From positions 1 through 48,059 of the IMG/VR virus record IMGVR_UViG_3300037153_000276: a stretch of 48,059 nucleotides of DNA; one strand, 5' to 3'. Source of the DNA: a virus. The notes below the pieces were generated by a model that saw only the letters and a list, made by a program, of their open reading frames with translations, did not search any database and was not told the DNA's origin. Positions 1-48,059 of the stretch are shown here, in pieces; positions within the stretch are counted from its first letter, which is position 1; each line of letters starts with the position of its first letter. The position numbers were made by a program, and so were the translations under genes.

Positions 1-177
1 GGGCGCCTGGGCTTGACGATCGAGGTCGCGGGCCGCAGCCAGCTCGAGGACCAAGCAACGCTGCAGGACACAGGAGTCCTGACCACGGATGGAGTCCAAC
101 CCCTCCTAGGGGTCGACTTCGCGCGGCGGGACTTGGTGTCGCTGGCCGTTACCTTCCGCGTGCCCCTTACCCATGGG
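1..177. repeat. Terminal redundancy, left copy
   Basis: Bases 1-177 are the same as 47883-48059 except at base 128 (G here, A at 48010). The repeat lies inside the outer-membrane barrel gene, which continues in frame across the join. This means a circular or circularly permuted genome closed by overlap, about 47,882 bp in length. The mismatch changes an Arg codon (CGG) to a Gln codon (CAG), so the two ends probably come from different molecules or variants. Confidence 0.95.
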
Positions 178-273
178 TTCCTCGCGCTGGTGGGGGTCTC
201 AATTCCGCTTACGCACCCCGACTTTGCGCCCGAGGCAGCCACACCCATCTTGGGTCTAGGTGGAACGTGGTAG
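1..273 (+). CDS. Outer-membrane beta-barrel protein, C-terminal part (continued from 47079)
   Basis: This is the in-frame continuation of the gene that leaves the right end of the window. It encodes alternating hydrophobic/polar strands, [20 protein letters not shown] and [11 protein letters not shown], and ends in [12 protein letters not shown] final aromatic residue closing the last strand is typical of outer-membrane barrels recognised by the BAM machinery. The TTG at base 13 is only an internal codon of the whole gene. The last seven bases overlap the GTG start of the collagen-like gene, so the two are probably translationally coupled. Confidence 0.75.
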
Positions 274-899
274 TTGCTATGCTGGCTCTCGCAGCGGTGC
301 TAGGGTGGGGTGGAGTGGGGTGGAGCCACCCGCATCCGTTCTGCGTGCTCAACAAGAAATGTGCAAGGGGGCTACAAGGTGAGATGGGACCCGTGGGTCC
401 CCAAGGACCCATTGGACTACCTGGCCCTTCTGGGGATCGTGGTGCTACTGGCCTTCCTGGTGTGGCTGGTGCTCCAGGGCCTGCGGGTCCAGTTGGACGT
501 GTTGGTCCCACAGGTCCGGTAGGGCCATCGGGGGCGACCGGACCGTCCGGAGTACTAGGGCCGGCGGGACCAACAGGACCAACTGGCGCAATGGGACCAA
601 CCGGGGCCCCCGGCCCGAGTGCCCAGACGCAGATCGTAACCATCACGCAAGACTTCGGGCGGCCCGCATCGGGGGCGTTTATACAACTCGTCGCGACATG
701 CCCACCCGGCATGCAAGTGGTAGGTGGGGGAACACTCGTTAACTTCGTTCCGCCAAGCGACACCGATACTGCACGGGTGCACCTGCTGTTTTCGGGCCCG
801 CTTAGCGAGAGCGAATGGATGGTGGCGTCAACACTCGTATCGAGGCCCTCCCAGGGCTCGAACCTATTCTACACTGTAACGGCGGTGTGCATACCATGA
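267..899 (+). CDS. Secreted collagen-like protein
   Basis: This 210-residue protein starts at the GTG at 267, which has AGGTGG just upstream and overlaps the barrel gene. Residues 1-20 are a hydrophobic signal-like segment rich in Ala/Leu/Val/Trp but without a basic n-region. Residues 35-118 are 28 uninterrupted Gly-X-Y triplets with many Pro at X and Y. The remaining 90 residues form a small beta domain with [11 protein letters not shown] and a terminal AVCIP, a pattern common in collagen-like phage and bacterial surface proteins. Gly-X-Y repeats trimerise, so an extracellular or virion-surface trimer is expected. It sits between an outer-membrane barrel and an endolysin, which suggests a cell-envelope role. 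The start of the gene contains a G-rich island at 303-323. Confidence 0.85.
303..323 (+). repeat. G-rich island a (GGGTGGGGTGG type)
   Basis: This G-tract run encodes GWGGVGW in the leader of the collagen-like protein. It is one of at least seven similar islands, on both strands, and has enough G-runs to form a G-quadruplex. Confidence 0.6.
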
Positions 900-1471
900 T
901 TCACCGAGACTATTTCTTCGATAACATCAAGTATTACCTCTTCAAGTCGTTCAACCAGGACCAAGTAGATGGGCTGAACGTGTTTCTAGACTGGTACGAC
1001 AACGAGAACCCACCCATCCCCGAGAAGTACCACATTGATGATCGGTGCCTGGCGTACATCTTGGCTACCACGTACCACGAGACTGCAGCGACGATGCAGC
1101 CCATCGCCGAGTACGGGAAGGGCAAGGGCAAATCCTACGGGAACCCGGCCGGCCCCTACGGACAGTGCTATTACGGCCGAGGGTACGTCCAGCTCACGTG
1201 GTACGACAACTATAAGCGCCAGGACGACAAGCTCGGTTTGAACGAGGCCCTCGTGAAAAACGCGGACCTGGCGCTCGATCCCCAGATCGCAAAGGACGTG
1301 ATCATCAAGGGGATGTACGATGGGGACTTCACGGGGGTGGGCCTCGGCAAGTTCTTCACGATTGATTTGACTGACTGGTACAACGCACGGACGATCGTGA
1401 ATGGGCACGATCGGGCCAGCGATATTGCCGCGTATGCAGAGAAGTTCGCCAACGCCCTAACGGAGATGTAG
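896..1471 (+). CDS. GH19-type endolysin (chitinase/lysozyme fold)
   Basis: This 191-residue enzyme is predicted to cut peptidoglycan sugar chains at lysis. The ATG at 896 overlaps the upstream TGA (ATGA), so it is preferred to earlier in-frame codons. Family-19 landmarks are visible: [13 protein letters not shown] with the catalytic-type Glu at residue 62, a second acidic position at Glu72 (AEYG), and [15 protein letters not shown] at about residues 92-106, matching the YxGRGxxQLT-xxNY signature. No signal peptide or SAR segment is present, so release must depend on a holin; the two-TM protein at 2311-2514 is the nearest candidate. Lying at the start of the structural block rather than at its end is a little unusual. 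Confidence 0.88.
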
Positions 1472-2310: not shown

Positions 2311-2514
2311 ATGCTGCTCATTCAGCTGGTGGTCATCCTGATCGTGATTGGGGTGCTGTTGTGGGCAGTGAACAACTATATCCCGATGGACGCCCGGATC
2401 AAGCAGATCATCAACGCAGTGGTCATCATTGCTATCGTGATCTGGCTCCTGTTGTGGCTGATGGCTGCGGTGGGTCTGGTCAGCATGCCAGGCACACCGA
2501 GGTTAGTGCCGTGA
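2311..2514 (+). CDS. Two-TM small membrane protein (Thivi_2564-like, holin candidate)
   Basis: This 67-residue protein has two hydrophobic segments, residues 2-20 (LLIQLVVILIVIGVLLWAV) and about 33-54 (IINAVVIIAIVIWLLLWL), separated by NNYIPMDARIKQ. The 'NxYIPMD' linker with a second TM is typical of a small phage membrane family often annotated Thivi_2564. It lies close to the endolysin, so a holin or holin-like lysis role is plausible, but the family has no proven function that I know of. Confidence 0.75.
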   Translation: MLLIQLVVILIVIGVLLWAVNNYIPMDARIKQIINAVVIIAIVIWLLLWLMAAVGLVSMPGTPRLVP

Positions 2515-22197: not shown

Positions 22198-23913
22198 ATG
22201 CCAGTCGTAGATCTCAGGGGTAAGAACGCTGAGCGGCAAGCTCAGATGATGATGATGATGCAGCAGTTCCGGAATCGCTCGGCCACGCTGGGTGGAGGCG
22301 AATCGGAGCTGGAGCGGGTGGAGAAGGAGATAGAGGAGAGGCGGAAGGAGCGCGAGGAAGAGGCGCGTCTAAGGGGCGTGGCTGAGTCGCAGATGGGTGC
22401 CAACCGGGCGCTCGAGGAGCAGCGTACCAGCGCGAAGAACGTTGGCGAGTGGAAGGCTGGCCAGCAGAACATCCTCGACTGGGAGGAGGAGGCTCGTAAG
22501 AAGAGGGAGCTCGAGGAGGGCACCCTGCCACTGAGGCGGGCTCAGACCGGCGAGGCACTGGCTGGTACTGAGTTCAAGAAGCAGCAAGCTATCCACGAAC
22601 GGGCCCAGACTGGCAAGACCCTGGCTGAGACTGAGGGCATCCTCAACGAAGACCAGCGAAAGTCCACGGAGGCTTTGATCGACCGAGCCCGGCGGCAGCG
22701 GAACATGGCTCGCGTGACGGTAACCGAGGGTGGTGTCGTAGATAAGTCGGGCGCGGATGCCCTCGAGCACGCCGAGCGGGTACTGACGGGTAACCCTGGC
22801 TACGTGCTGCCCCGCAACCCTGATGGCTCGTGGAAGGCGCCGAGCAAGGTCGAGCTAGGCATGGTGGACGAGAAGGGGAACCCCACCGCGAAGTATGCCG
22901 AGGCGATTGACAAGATCCAGGAGCCGAACAGTCCGTTTGGGAAGCTGATGGGGGATGCTGCGGAGGCCAAGGCTAACGGTGCACCGCCATGGGTCATGGA
23001 GCAGTACAAGGCGAAGTGGCTCAAGGAGTCGGCGATGACCGAAGGCGAGATGAAGGGCTCGATGGTCAAGCCATTCTTGGAACGGCAGGACTACGAGGGC
23101 GCAGCACGGGCCCTGGCAGCCTTTAGGGCACCGCCAAAGCCCCAGATGCCCAGCAAAGAGGAGCGAATGGAGTTCGCTCGGCAGGGCCGTCTCATCACGC
23201 AGATTGAAGGGATCCAACAGCAGTACAACAAGTTGAAGTCTGAGGGGCGAATCCCGGTTGGACGCCTACGACAGCCGATGCTGGATGCCTGGGCGGCGGT
23301 AGGAAACGATGACCCTGAGTTGCAGACCCTCCGCAAAGACGTGAACCAGATGATGGGCGATTACGTCTTGTATCTATCCGGCCGAGCGGCGACGGACCAG
23401 GAGCGGGCGGATATCAAAACTAGGATCCCGTCGTTGTTCGACAGCACCCAAACGTTTGAGGCGTCACTACCCGCGTTCCAGAACAAGGTCAAGACAAACG
23501 TTTCGATCGACGCTGGCCTTCTCTACAGCCTTGGCTACAAGATCCCCGACAACGTGCCGATCCTGCCGATGGAGGACATTCTCAAGCAGGGGCCGGTACC
23601 GAACATCATCACTGAGACGGGCTTCATCCCGGCCGAGAACATCAAGCAGCACATTAAGGGTATTGGGGTACTGGGCCGGGATCCGAAGCGCATAGGTGAT
23701 CTAGCCAACGAGCTACGAGACAAGGGTGGGCCGCCGGTTGCCCAACCGGGTGGTCCCGAGTCGAGTGAGACCCAGGAGCCACCGATGTCTACGGAGAGCA
23801 ACGCCGTGCTGTCGCCTGAGCTACCTAGTGACCCGAAGGCATACAAGGATCCAGCGAAGGCACGTGGCTTGCTAATGGAACGTGACAAGATCATGAAGAG
23901 CCTGGAGGACTGA
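22198..23913 (+). CDS. Internal virion protein 3 (long helical)
   Basis: This 571-residue charged helical protein starts one base after the previous stop (ATG at 22198). Residues 15-175 are rich in Glu/Arg/Gln and likely coiled coil (LERVEKEIEERRKEREEEAR). A four-Met run (DNA ATGATGATGATG, residues 16-20) is visible. A Pro/Ser-rich tail precedes the last helix. It probably forms part of an ejected core or trans-envelope channel. Confidence 0.6.
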   Translation: MPVVDLRGKNAERQAQMMMMMQQFRNRSATLGGGESELERVEKEIEERRKEREEEARLRGVAESQMGANRALEEQRTSAKNVGEWKAGQQNILDWEEEARKKRELEEGTLPLRRAQTGEALAGTEFKKQQAIHERAQTGKTLAETEGILNEDQRKSTEALIDRARRQRNMARVTVTEGGVVDKSGADALEHAERVLTGNPGYVLPRNPDGSWKAPSKVELGMVDEKGNPTAKYAEAIDKIQEPNSPFGKLMGDAAEAKANGAPPWVMEQYKAKWLKESAMTEGEMKGSMVKPFLERQDYEGAARALAAFRAPPKPQMPSKEERMEFARQGRLITQIEGIQQQYNKLKSEGRIPVGRLRQPMLDAWAAVGNDDPELQTLRKDVNQMMGDYVLYLSGRAATDQERADIKTRIPSLFDSTQTFEASLPAFQNKVKTNVSIDAGLLYSLGYKIPDNVPILPMEDILKQGPVPNIITETGFIPAENIKQHIKGIGVLGRDPKRIGDLANELRDKGGPPVAQPGGPESSETQEPPMSTESNAVLSPELPSDPKAYKDPAKARGLLMERDKIMKSLED

Positions 23914-23914
23914 C

Positions 23915-26056
23915 ATGAGTCCAACCGAGCGTGAGCGCGCCTTAGCGAAGCTAGCAGAGATCGACGCCCAGCTCGAGGCAGAACGTACGATGGACCCTAG
24001 GGGCCCAGCCGGCGCGTTCTCGGAGCCGATCTACACCACTGACAAGCCGCCAGTCATAACCGAGGGAAAGGGCAGCTTGCAGAAAGCCGTGGAGTTCGGG
24101 GTACCAATCGCGACGACCATGTACGGTGCAGCGAAGGGCGCCGAGATGATAGCTCCCATCGCATCAAAGGTCCCGACTCCGATGGGCAAGGCTGTCGTGC
24201 TAGGAGGCGGTGCAGTCGCCGGAGCTGCGCTGGCGGGCGCTGGCACCGAGATGACTCTGCAAGGCGTCCAGGCGACGATGGGCTTGCCAGGGGCACCGGA
24301 TAGCATTGACGATGCGTACCGGAGGACCTTGGCGGCGGGTATGGGTGAGGGCCAGGCGGAGCTGATCGGGCGGACTGTGATCGGCCCTGTCACCTCGGCT
24401 ATCACGCCGTTCCGGCGGGCGATGACTCCCGAGAGCGCCGACGTCCTAAAGACGATGGCGAACCGGGTCCGGGCCGCCTACGAGGAGATCGGGGGCAAGC
24501 CTCTGGTAGAGGAGACCCGAAGGTTGTGGAACCCTGGCCGTATCTTGGAACCGTTGGAGACTGAGCTGAAGGATAGCGCGGTCTACAAGCGACTACGAGA
24601 TGCGGGCCTTGATCCGGAGGTCGCACGGCGAGTTGCGATCACGGGGGGTGCGGTACCAAGCCGCCTTGATACGAGTATCACCTCGAAGTTCTGGGATCGC
24701 GTCAGCGGCTCTAAGATGGTGCCTGATGAAGCGTACGAGCAAGCTCGAGGGAAGCTCCTGCACTACGCAACGCTAAACGATCTTGGCTCGAGCTTCGCAG
24801 ATCAGATACCGCCAGAGCAGATGGGCAAGGTTGTCACGGCGGCCCTGAGTGGGCGCTTCGATACCCTCAACGCGGTCCGCCAGACCGCTATGAACACGTT
24901 GGATGAGAAGCTGCCAGTGGGCCTTAAGCTCGACATCAGTGATCTACGGAAAACGATGGGAGCTACCGCGAGTGTCAAGGGCCCTAGTGGCACGACTATA
25001 TCGGGCTTCCCGAAGGGGCCGGCGAGCAAGCAGCCGGGGGCCAAGATCATCCTTGGGCTACCTGACAACGCGAGCTTTGCGGATATCCAGACGGCGCGGG
25101 CTACGCTGGGGAATATGGCGAGAGATACCCGCCAGTTCCCTGACCCGGCTGCGCGGCTTGAGCTGAGGCAGCGTATTGTCGAGCTTGACAACGCTACCCG
25201 AGATGGCCTGCCACCCAGGTACCGGAGCACGTTTAGGAAGTGGACTCGGGCGGACGACGATATCAACAAGGCTGGGTTCGATGCACACTTCGTGGAAGGC
25301 TTGCTCCACAAGGAGGAGAACGCCTACAGGGTGGCGAAATCGATCATCGACAACAAGAGTGTGGACGACTTTGGTAGGCTGGAGGTTGCGCTTAAGGGGA
25401 CCCAGAATGGTCCCCGTATTCTTGGCCAGGTAAAGAGCGCGATCGCCGACCAGTTCTTCAAGGAGTCGGTCAGCAGCGGTGGCATTCTGCAGCCAAGCCA
25501 GCTACACACTGCGTTAGGTAACAACACCTTGGGGTACGGCAAATACTTCCTGGAGTCGACGCTTGGTCCCGAGTACGTCCGCACGCTACATAAATACATC
25601 GAGGCCATGGGCACGGTCGACAAGGCGGTGCAGAAGGCGGGTAGCGCGACTCGGGTCGGCTTGACGCTCGCGGGCACCGTGGCTGGCGTCACAGGCCTGA
25701 TGCGCGGCGTGCCGGGTACTACAACGGGGAGCGGATTTCTTACCGCGGTGACGGTGCTGTTCTCGCCGGCGGTGGTATCGAAGGCGCTCACGAATACAGC
25801 CGCCAGCAAGCTGCTGGTCAAGACTGCCGAGAACGTCGCGGCTGGTCGCAACCCGAAGACTACCGCGAGGCTAGCCGCCCGGGTACTTGACTATATTGGT
25901 ATGACGCCAGAAGCCGCGCTGGCATCCATAACCAACGTGCCAGCTACGCCGCGGCAACAGGCCGCGGGGATGGTGCAGCAGGGAGTCGTGGGACAGGGCG
26001 TGCCAACCGGCCAGCCGCTCCCGATGACCGGCGGCACGCCACTGCCTGGAACCTGA
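23915..26056 (+). CDS. Internal virion protein 4
   Basis: This is the last gene of the plus block, 713 residues. It has a hydrophobic segment with Gly/Ala repeats at about residues 85-125 (AVVLGGGAVAGAALAGAGTE), a long helical middle, a second hydrophobic stretch near residue 590 (RVGLTLAGTVAGVTGLM), and a Pro/Gly C-terminus. No lysozyme or protease motif is seen. Two potential membrane-active segments fit a DNA-ejection role. Confidence 0.6.
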   Translation: MSPTERERALAKLAEIDAQLEAERTMDPRGPAGAFSEPIYTTDKPPVITEGKGSLQKAVEFGVPIATTMYGAAKGAEMIAPIASKVPTPMGKAVVLGGGAVAGAALAGAGTEMTLQGVQATMGLPGAPDSIDDAYRRTLAAGMGEGQAELIGRTVIGPVTSAITPFRRAMTPESADVLKTMANRVRAAYEEIGGKPLVEETRRLWNPGRILEPLETELKDSAVYKRLRDAGLDPEVARRVAITGGAVPSRLDTSITSKFWDRVSGSKMVPDEAYEQARGKLLHYATLNDLGSSFADQIPPEQMGKVVTAALSGRFDTLNAVRQTAMNTLDEKLPVGLKLDISDLRKTMGATASVKGPSGTTISGFPKGPASKQPGAKIILGLPDNASFADIQTARATLGNMARDTRQFPDPAARLELRQRIVELDNATRDGLPPRYRSTFRKWTRADDDINKAGFDAHFVEGLLHKEENAYRVAKSIIDNKSVDDFGRLEVALKGTQNGPRILGQVKSAIADQFFKESVSSGGILQPSQLHTALGNNTLGYGKYFLESTLGPEYVRTLHKYIEAMGTVDKAVQKAGSATRVGLTLAGTVAGVTGLMRGVPGTTTGSGFLTAVTVLFSPAVVSKALTNTAASKLLVKTAENVAAGRNPKTTARLAARVLDYIGMTPEAALASITNVPATPRQQAAGMVQQGVVGQGVPTGQPLPMTGGTPLPGT

Positions 26057-30028: not shown

Positions 30029-31474
30029 TCATTCAGCAACCACTGAGGGCTGAGGTTCACCAGCAGGCTCAGGATCAACAACTGGCGCCACGTCAGAGAC
30101 CGCCTCACTCGCCAGATCACGAGCCACGCGGTCCACCGCGCTGCGATAGAAGTCTTGATGCTTCTCAATCCCGATGAACCTGCATCCGAGCTGAGCTGCA
30201 GCAACCAACGTGCTTCCAGATCCGGCGAAGGGGTCCAGTACGATCTCTCCCTTGACGGCGCTCGCTTCGACGAGGTGTCGCATGAGCGCGACGGGCTTCT
30301 CAACGCTGTGGATCTTCTTTCCGACGGTGTCATACTTGAGCACATTGAACGGTTGAGGCTTGACTAGTATACGGCCTCGATTCACCCAGAAGCAAGGCTC
30401 GTAGCTATAGATCCAGCTCCGGGTGGGATCCCCGATGCCTGTCGTTTGCTTCATCCAGATGAGCGGTGTTGCCTCGCACTCCCCAAAGTGCCGCTTGAGC
30501 ATGAGGTACACTGGCTCGTACCTGGTCATGTGGAAGAACACGTAGGCATGTCCGTCCGGCTTCAGCAGCCTGGCCGCGTGCATAAACGTCTCGTCCAGCA
30601 TGTCCATAATGGTCTTCGGGTCGTCGTCGTACATGGCGCCCTGTGATTCGGCGAACTTGCTCGAGCTTACGGCAGAGCCTTCCTTGTACAGTCCAATCCC
30701 GTAAGGCGGATCTGTGACAATAAGGTCAACAGAATCCTCCGGCAGTCCACGCAGGACATCACGTGCATCAGCATGGTAGAATACGCCAATCCCTTTCCAG
30801 ACAGCTTTGCGAATCGGCTGCCGGACAAAGGTCGGCGCCTCGGGTGCTTCACCTTCTTGCTCGAGCTCTTCGTCGTCCTCAACGAGTTGTCCATGGTCCT
30901 CACCTTGCTTTCGCTTGGCGAGCTCCGCGCGTAGCGCAGTCTCCTTCATTCGGCGGTAGCGCTTGAACGCGGACGACTTCGTCTTTTCTTCGATGAGGTC
31001 CGGGTATTCCTTGAGCGCCTTGGCCAAAGCCAGGTCCATCGAGATGCTGCCGGTCGCCCTGTCTAGCTCGCGGGCTGCCTCCTCGATGCCGTACCCACCG
31101 TTCTCTGATAGAGGGTTACCCTTCTCGCCGTACCGCTCCTGCTTTGCCATGTACAACTTGTACAGGCCGACCACCTCCTCTTGCCACTCGAGATCCTTGC
31201 GTCGGATGTTCTCCTCTAGCTCGAGTTCCTGTCGCACAATGGGGTCGAGCGCTTCCATTCGCCGGTACAGGATGTCGGGATGGCCGAGGCTCTTGGCCGC
31301 CAAGATGCGGCGGTGGCCGGCGATGAGGTTGTTCTCGTTATCAAGCACAATCGGTGTGAGCAATCCGAACCGAGCGATCGACGCGGCAAGCTCCTCAATG
31401 TTGCCGAAGTATTTCCGCATCCGGTGCTTCTCACCGATGACGATGTCCGTGATGGGGATGCGATCGTCAGCCAT
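30029..31474 (-). CDS. ParB-N / DNA methyltransferase fusion
   Basis: In this 481-residue protein, residues 5-75 form a ParB/sulfiredoxin-like N-terminal domain (GLLTPIVLDNENNLIAGHRR). Residues 100-165 contain a helical DNA-binding-like region. From residue 225 a methyltransferase follows, with motif IV DPPYG at 255-259 and motif I LDPFAGSGST about 165 residues later; this order is the beta class of N6-adenine/N4-cytosine enzymes. It probably methylates phage DNA against host restriction. The ParB-like part might read a specific site or bind a nucleotide. The palindromes described here are one possible target, without direct evidence. Confidence 0.85.
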   Translation of the reverse strand: MADDRIPITDIVIGEKHRMRKYFGNIEELAASIARFGLLTPIVLDNENNLIAGHRRILAAKSLGHPDILYRRMEALDPIVRQELELEENIRRKDLEWQEEVVGLYKLYMAKQERYGEKGNPLSENGGYGIEEAARELDRATGSISMDLALAKALKEYPDLIEEKTKSSAFKRYRRMKETALRAELAKRKQGEDHGQLVEDDEELEQEGEAPEAPTFVRQPIRKAVWKGIGVFYHADARDVLRGLPEDSVDLIVTDPPYGIGLYKEGSAVSSSKFAESQGAMYDDDPKTIMDMLDETFMHAARLLKPDGHAYVFFHMTRYEPVYLMLKRHFGECEATPLIWMKQTTGIGDPTRSWIYSYEPCFWVNRGRILVKPQPFNVLKYDTVGKKIHSVEKPVALMRHLVEASAVKGEIVLDPFAGSGSTLVAAAQLGCRFIGIEKHQDFYRSAVDRVARDLASEAVSDVAPVVDPEPAGEPQPSVVAE

Positions 31475-46654: not shown

Positions 46655-47101
46655 GTGAACGTCGGGCTGGGAGTCGAACGGGAATGGGGCGGATTCATCC
46701 AAGCGTTTGCCGAGACGGTCAAGGAGATCCGGATGATGCTAGGTCTCTCCCAGCAGGACCTAGCCAACCGGGCGATGACCAGCCAAGGGACAATCTCGCG
46801 CGTCGAGTCCGGGCTGCACCCAGACGTGCCGTTCATAACGGTGATGAAGCTCCTCCTGACGCTCTCCAGCGATACCAAGCTCATCCCCGAGGCGCTCCGC
46901 CCCCAAACACGCGACCTGCTGGGGTTTATAGACGTGCTGCGGCCGATCGTCCCTGGTCTGCAAGCGTCACCACCCGAACCGGCCTTCGCGAATCTTTTGT
47001 TGACGCTTCAATCTTTGACGCAGACACAAAGGCGGACGTTTGTTCGGCTGGTAATCCCAATAGCGAAATACGTGGCTAGTGACGGGACCGAGGATACCTA
47101 G
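46655..47101 (+). CDS. XRE-family helix-turn-helix regulator
   Basis: This 148-residue protein reads from the GTG at 46655 (no strong ribosome site). Residues 20-58 form an XRE/Cro-type DNA-binding domain: KEIRMMLGLSQQDLANRAMT and SQGTISRVESGL. The C-terminal half is helical, likely for dimerisation. It lies before the envelope/late genes and carries a near-match of the TTCA-N5-TGAA motif in its 3' end. It is a good candidate reader of the dispersed palindromes. Confidence 0.78.
   Translation: MNVGLGVEREWGGFIQAFAETVKEIRMMLGLSQQDLANRAMTSQGTISRVESGLHPDVPFITVMKLLLTLSSDTKLIPEALRPQTRDLLGFIDVLRPIVPGLQASPPEPAFANLLLTLQSLTQTQRRTFVRLVIPIAKYVASDGTEDT
47000..47019 (+). promoter_or_regulatory. Degenerate TTCA-N5-TGAA site 8
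   Basis: TTGA-CGC-TTCA (47007-47010), ATCTT, TGAC: one mismatch in the right half. It is inside the XRE gene about 60 bases before the GTG of the outer-membrane barrel gene, so it could control that gene. Confidence 0.45.
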
Positions 47102-48059
47102 TGCAGTCTTCCTGTTAATACTGAGCTATAGCATGGCTAAGGCTGATCCGAGACCTGCGCCTCAGAACCCCCTGCAAGCCCTGCGCGAGGCGCCCGAGCT
47201 CGCCGAGATACAGTCTGCTCCCCAGTTCACGTTTCTCGCTAATAAGCTCTCCCAAGCATTCGGCCAGCTCGCCCTGGAGGGCTCGTTCGCCGACGCGTTC
47301 AATCCAAGCCCAGCAGGGCCAACCCTACTGCCAGCGGCGCAGTCGATAGGTAAGGGCAAGTTCAGTTTAGGCGCAGCGGCCAGCACGTCTCGCATCGACT
47401 TCCAGCGGGCGCAGGGTCTAGTGTTAGGGCGCGGCGATGATTTGGTTGTCCAAGCCCTTAACTACCACCTCGAGCTGTGGCAATCAGTGCTCTTTCTGCT
47501 CGCCACGTATGGCCTGTGGGATGACTTCGACGCCACACTTACCATGCCCTTCGTGTGGACCAACACCAAGCTCGATGTCACTCGTGGGGGGGTGGGGGGT
47601 GGGGTCCGGCTATCCTCGGGCGCGCAAGGCGACTTGACGCTGCGCCTAAAATACTACCTCCAGTACAATACCGGCATCGGCCTAACCTTCAGCTTCCCAA
47701 CCGGGGTCCCAGAGAAGCTCACGAGCACAGGTGACTATTGGGTGGCCATGTTCGCCACTCATACCGAATCGCTGGGGAGCTGTTGCCAGCTCACCGGGAA
47801 TGCGGGCATCAACTTTGATCTCAACGATGTGGCCGCGAGTGAGGTCACATATGGCCTCGGGTTCGGGGCCATCCTGATCACTGGGCGCCTGGGCTTGACG
47901 ATCGAGGTCGCGGGCCGCAGCCAGCTCGAGGACCAAGCAACGCTGCAGGACACAGGAGTCCTGACCACGGATGGAGTCCAACCCCTCCTAGGGGTCGACT
48001 TCGCGCGGCAGGACTTGGTGTCGCTGGCCGTTACCTTCCGCGTGCCCCTTACCCATGGG
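47079..48059 (+). CDS. Outer-membrane beta-barrel protein, N-terminal part (continues at base 1)
   Basis: Joined to 1-273 this gene encodes about 358 residues. Starting from the GTG at 47079 the first 22 residues form a signal peptide: one Arg in the n-region, a hydrophobic AVFLLILSYS core, and an AKA|D cleavage site. The ATG at 47133 would give 340 residues without a signal, so the GTG is preferred although its ribosome site is weak; it overlaps the end of the XRE gene by 23 bases, which could couple translation. The mature protein has the strand pattern of the MetA-pathway/'transporter' outer-membrane barrels (PF13557-like), for example ATYGLWDDFDATLTMPFVWT followed by a GDLTLRLKYYL strand. 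A G-rich island inserts RGGVGGGVR between two predicted strands. The likely location is the host outer membrane; superinfection exclusion or envelope change are inferences only. Confidence 0.75.
   Translation, partial: MTGPRIPSAVFLLILSYSMAKADPRPAPQNPLQALREAPELAEIQSAPQFTFLANKLSQAFGQLALEGSFADAFNPSPAGPTLLPAAQSIGKGKFSLGAAASTSRIDFQRAQGLVLGRGDDLVVQALNYHLELWQSVLFLLATYGLWDDFDATLTMPFVWTNTKLDVTRGGVGGGVRLSSGAQGDLTLRLKYYLQYNTGIGLTFSFPTGVPEKLTSTGDYWVAMFATHTESLGSCCQLTGNAGINFDLNDVAASEVTYGLGFGAILITGRLGLTIEVAGRSQLEDQATLQDTGVLTTDGVQPLLGVDFARQDLVSLAVTFRVPLTHG
47586..47610 (+). repeat. G-rich island g
   Basis: GGGGGGGTGGGGGGTGGGG then TCCGGC lies inside the outer-membrane barrel gene, in frame, coding for RGGVGGGVR between two predicted strands. 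Confidence 0.65.
47883..48059. repeat. Terminal redundancy, right copy
   Basis: This is the second copy of bases 1-177, with a single difference at 48010 (A instead of G). A fixed direct terminal repeat would normally be identical at both ends, so assembly overlap of a circularly permuted or polymorphic population is the simpler reading. Confidence 0.95.

Follow-up and report, generated by a model that had tools for sequence, protein, structure and literature searches.

A predicted outer-membrane barrel encoded with an exported collagen-like protein in six phage records

Introduction

The secretion channel of Pseudomonas functional amyloid, FapF (PDB 5o65, 5o67 and 5o68; PMC5557850), is an outer-membrane barrel of about 12 strands encoded with the Fap subunits and the FapD protease, and its substrates also leave by Sec, waiting in the periplasm (PMC5557850). 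A PTG motif is present in both FapF and Pput2725, where in FapF it lies at the base of loop 5–6 (PMC5557850), and the same fold and motif characterise the Phenol_MetA_deg family (PF13557), represented by the COG4313 channel (PDB 4rl8). Phage-borne outer-membrane barrels are already known, for example lambda Lom (PF06316), encoded in the late region (PMC9836094), with several further phage-borne barrels present in BFVD. Exported proteins with collagen-like G-X-Y repeats have likewise been described in bacteria, including Legionella Lcl (PMC3460888).

Both the fold and bacterial exported collagen-like proteins are thus familiar; a limited literature search of titles and abstracts found none describing a phage barrel next to a gene for an exported collagen-like protein. 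What is new at the locus described here is that the barrel gene and such a collagen-like gene make up a conserved, apparently mobile pair. The solved fold nearest to the barrel is that of a polypeptide exporter, FapF.

Record ends and the joined barrel gene

The window, meaning the whole 48,059 bp of DNA analysed, is a soil phage record classed as linear (IMGVR_UViG_3300037153_000276). Positions 1–177 match 47883–48059 at 176 of 177 sites, the sole mismatch falling at position 128; this overlap of the two ends makes it probable that the genome is complete. When 47079–47882 is joined to 1–273, a frame of 1077 nt results (358 aa and a stop), which stays open with either version of the overlap. 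The features concerned are as follows.

46655..47101, plus strand: gene for an HTH_3 (Xre-type) regulator-like protein, its 3' end overlapping the barrel start by 23 nt
47079..48059, plus strand: predicted barrel gene, codons 1–327 of 358, resuming at 178–273 past the end overlap
47883..48059, plus strand: end overlap with 1–177, the contig being circular or terminally redundant despite its linear listing
1..273, plus strand: predicted barrel gene, last 91 codons including the stop, of which 1–177 duplicates 47883–48059

The join is further supported by synteny, since L003, whose TerL is 94% identical to that of the window, has homologues of the HTH gene (from the window end) and of the lysin (from the window start) as immediate neighbours, in that order. 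Assembly error as the source of the overlap was set aside, as the frame survives the one mismatch and the joined gene order fits this synteny. The initial annotation, which held that the linear representation splits one gene between 47079–48059 and 1–273 and that its product ends in an aromatic residue, is borne out on both counts by the overlap, the 358-codon frame and the L003 gene order, the terminal residue being W358. Another frame, 46684–47079, ends right beside the GTG; since the HTH match sits in 46655–47101, this frame was discarded as a candidate for the upstream gene.

Start codon and signal peptide

Upstream of ATG 47133 the frame is open back to a stop codon, and in that stretch the GTG at 47079 is the sole ATG, GTG or TTG codon; neither GTG 47079 nor ATG 47133 is preceded by a strong Shine–Dalgarno sequence. 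Read from the GTG, the protein begins with a candidate export signal.

47079..47144, plus strand: putative Sec signal peptide, MTGPRIPSAVFLLILSYSMAKA|D, scored by heuristic and matched in the L033 homologue

Signal peptides were scored with a home-made heuristic combining a hydrophobic core and a cleavage motif, by which the score of the GTG form was reached by 18 of 1800 starts having 45 open codons and ranked fifth among 151 ORFs, whereas the ATG 47133 form shows no signal-peptide-like core. The phage homologue L033 carries a clear signal peptide, MERAARPILIPVLLLASAIHA|Q, at a position matching that of the window. The proposal that GTG 47079 adds a Sec-signal-like N-terminus ending in AKA|D, which the ATG form would miss, is therefore favoured by this heuristic, and because only the GTG form scores and L033 has its signal peptide at the corresponding place, translation from the GTG is likely, though unproven. 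The barrel signal peptides of L034, L045 and L070 are weaker.

Sequence family

Alone, the 358-aa protein gave no useful match in the Pfam, NCBIfam, PHROGs, PDB, phage, plasmid and viral_contigs collections, and PHROGs has no family for it, so that ordinary annotation would miss the barrel. Relatives were sought with three probe alignments (A1–A3), built of degenerate motifs and made-up rows and used as search probes only, every match to which was confirmed by tblastn with the real window protein. A2 found no viral relative; A3 reached bacterial relatives in Sulfuriferula, several Acidobacteria and a Zixibacterium, mostly Acidobacteriota, with 22–25% identity extending up to the C-terminus. 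Once these bacterial relatives were used, the viral relatives L033, L034, L035, L045 and L070 were found, L033 aligning over residues 34–358 of the window protein at 29% identity (E 6e-28). Comparison of the phage and bacterial barrel profiles by hhalign gave a probability of 99.6 (E 9e-24).

Against the PF13557 cut-off of 22 bits, the bacterial L030 and L032 score 38.9 and 36.1 bits and the phage homologue L033 scores 32.3 bits. The joined window protein has no PF13557 match at E ≤ 1, nor does anything else in the record, so that the family named as a check in the initial annotation was not matched by the window protein itself. The broader claim of a barrel of the MetA-pathway/transporter type stood in part: it is favoured by homology and by the structural model of L033, with the family match confined to relatives. 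The window protein is thus supported, through those relatives, as a distant member of the Phenol_MetA_deg/COG4313/FapF barrel fold. FapF itself has no sequence match to the window protein.

Compared with Lom, the window barrel is longer and of another family, having no Pfam match to Lom at E ≤ 1, and none of the 13 aligned relatives matched PF06316. To our knowledge, Lom has no collagen-like partner.

Genomes with a relative of the barrel are more frequent in Acidobacteriota (31 of 297) than in the phylum of Sulfuriferula (2 of 299). A host search by TerL in Acidobacteriota returned generic matches only. The barrel was absent from 23 TerL relatives searched whole, a weak negative given the divergence of the query.

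Predicted fold

Full-length AlphaFold modelling of L033 from 13 aligned sequences predicted a barrel of about 12 strands after merging of breaks (pTM 0.68; pLDDT ∼90 over most core strands), with the PTG motif at the base of one extracellular loop and low-confidence helices at the N-terminus, a region absent in L034 and L045. Foldseek placed FapF as the top PDB match of the model (E 1.9e-11, probability 1.0), followed by the COG4313 channel of Pseudomonas putida (E 1.4e-8) and then FadL-type and porin barrels. Since TM-scores to FapF and the COG4313 channel are moderate (0.43–0.68 in either normalisation), the likeness predicted by the model is one of family level and no close match. The strands were mapped by alignment onto the window protein up to residue 324; single-sequence AlphaFold of its 327-aa part was uninformative (pLDDT 32). 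The motif is located in the window as follows.

47697..47705, plus strand: PTG motif, residues 207–209, invariant in the phage barrels

The collagen-like partner

In all six phage records, the window included, an exported G-X-Y (collagen-like) gene directly follows the barrel, either overlapping its stop or adjoining it, and in the window lysis genes come after this gene.

267..899, plus strand: exported collagen-like protein with a signal peptide, starting at GTG 267, which overlaps the barrel stop, or at ATG 279
896..1471, plus strand: GH19-like endolysin, joined to the collagen-like gene by an ATGA overlap
2311..2514, plus strand: small protein with two transmembrane segments, a holin candidate conserved in most relatives

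The window collagen-like protein has 28 G-X-Y triplets (84 residues) followed by a C-terminal domain of the pattern C...GGG...SGP...W...C; this domain is homologous across all six records, with repeats of 60–93 residues in the five measured. Lcl-type proteins differ from it in that the present one is phage-encoded, has its own C-terminal domain and follows its own upstream barrel gene. The pair directly precedes the endolysin in the window, L034, L035 and L045; in L070 it is followed by a BhlA-like holin and then the endolysin, and in L033 by a large ORF of another kind with no adjoining lysin. No G-X-Y gene was found near the bacterial homologues, most of whose loci show only ∼1.5 kb per side.

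Exported collagen-like genes occur in L012, L022 and L023 without a recognisable barrel, so that any dependence between the two genes runs one way at most. Those of L022 (17871–18368) and L023 (21114–21533) are Cys-rich and lie after fibre-like structural genes.

Mobility and selection

The TerL of the window has no match in the five other barrel-bearing phage records, and a search of 21 window genes against these loci gave no matches beyond the lysin and a fibre stretch, which suggests that the barrel and collagen-like genes travel between different phages as a mobile two-gene set; by sequence comparison the six genomes appear to use at least two unrelated packaging machineries. At the same site in L003 both genes are missing, and the HTH and lysin genes are adjacent.

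In a tree with 22 bacterial barrels, the six phage barrels form one clade on a long branch (support 100/100), the bacterial set having been gathered via the probe alignment, so that nearer bacterial relatives may exist. As dN/dS is ∼0.07 (L034/L035) and ∼0.2 (L034/L070) where dS is unsaturated, the phage barrel gene is, by this measure, maintained under purifying selection.

Possible functions of the pair

The pairing and mobility of the two genes make it most likely, as judged from gene arrangement, that they work together. The favoured reading, held tentatively at somewhat under even confidence and by analogy with FapF, is that they constitute a mobile phage envelope module in which the barrel exports or anchors a collagen-like fibre and thereby alters the host surface. 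Under this export-or-anchor reading, the pair, probably co-transcribed with the adjoining lysis genes, would yield a 358-aa protein that is exported by Sec, cut at AKA|D and inserted into the outer membrane of the host, where it forms a PTG-type barrel of about 12 strands. The collagen-like protein would be translated from its overlapping start and likewise exported by Sec, after which the barrel would bring it to the outer face of the infected cell or keep it there, in a manner resembling the export of Fap amyloid subunits by FapF. Late in infection, the displayed fibre may modify that surface, blocking further adsorption or changing adhesion. We infer a physical partnership, a direction of transport, surface display and a benefit from the pair. 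A more specific version, in which a virus-borne secretion channel is dedicated to the collagen-like fibre and the mobile two-gene system clothes the infected cell as it spreads among unrelated phages, is less probable.

FapF and the phage barrel are alike in being encoded with a Sec-exported, fibre-forming partner (predicted as such for the phage), an amyloid for the former and a collagen-like protein for the latter; in contrast to the Fap subunits and FapD, the window neighbours are HTH, collagen-like and lysin genes, with no FapD-type protease seen. Several observations count against export, however: the fold alone does not reveal the direction of transport, given that the COG4313 channel, which shares it, is an importer; the short barrels L034, L045 and L070 give no evident sign of the N-terminal coiled coil and helical plug known from FapF, and their signal peptides are weaker; and the barrel-less collagen-like genes of L012, L022 and L023 indicate that export does not always need a barrel. 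An auxiliary metabolic channel for uptake of hydrophobic compounds, as in COG4313/Phenol_MetA_deg importers, would account for the fold and the PTG motif held in common with the Pput2725 importer (PMC5557850), but is very improbable in view of the late lysis/structural setting, the paired collagen-like gene and the lack of catabolic genes seen adjoining, the phage setting and the collagen-like pairing also distinguishing the window protein from PF13557/COG4313 channels.

Location beside the endolysin raises a role in lysis, in which the barrel and a collagen-like rod would act with the endolysin on the outer membrane as a spanin-like or disruptin-like device. The pair precedes the endolysin in five of the six records, accompanied in L070 by the BhlA-like holin, and, taking the rise per residue of a collagen triple helix, the measured repeats would span ∼17–27 nm, near the depth of the periplasm; Lom, moreover, has been proposed to interact with holin (PMC9836094). 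Such a device is nevertheless unlikely, as the L033 pair sits away from the lysin, close relatives such as L003 presumably still lyse their hosts without the pair, and on inspection neither protein has spanin features, namely a lipobox o-spanin or a transmembrane–coiled-coil i-spanin. Little chance is likewise given to the barrel itself altering the surface, by masking or competing for the phage receptor or by excluding superinfection, with the collagen-like protein a separate or auxiliary surface factor: its predicted outer-membrane location, the moron-like insertion between the HTH and lysin genes and the standing of phage-borne outer-membrane proteins such as Lom as conversion proteins (PMC9836094) would all fit, but the collagen-like gene following the barrel in every record is left unexplained, and, for exclusion during a lytic cycle, a place by the lysin in the late operon would come late.

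Phage collagen-like proteins are usually taken for tail fibres; those considered here, with signal peptides and a dedicated outer-membrane barrel, would instead have the envelope of the host as their site of action. Should the barrel indeed export its neighbour, it would be the viral equivalent of a bacterial system for fibre secretion and give a phage a new means of remodelling the surface of its host.

Other genes of the window and related records

The site before the lysin appears to accept genes for exported proteins in general. At or near it, TerL relatives of the window encode other signal-peptide proteins (L006:414–1703, L016:5949–7151 and L015:6597–7202), those of L006 and L016 being mutually homologous (33%). 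Signal-peptide-like N-termini also occur near the pair at L034:424–1116, L034:3818–4264, L035:7991–9890 and L070:6779–7998. Elsewhere in the window, two large ORFs at 22198–23913 and 23915–26056 (571 and 713 aa) have no PHROG or Pfam match, and a gene at 30029–31474 on the minus strand, matching both ParB-like and DNA methyltransferase PHROGs, is probably a fusion.
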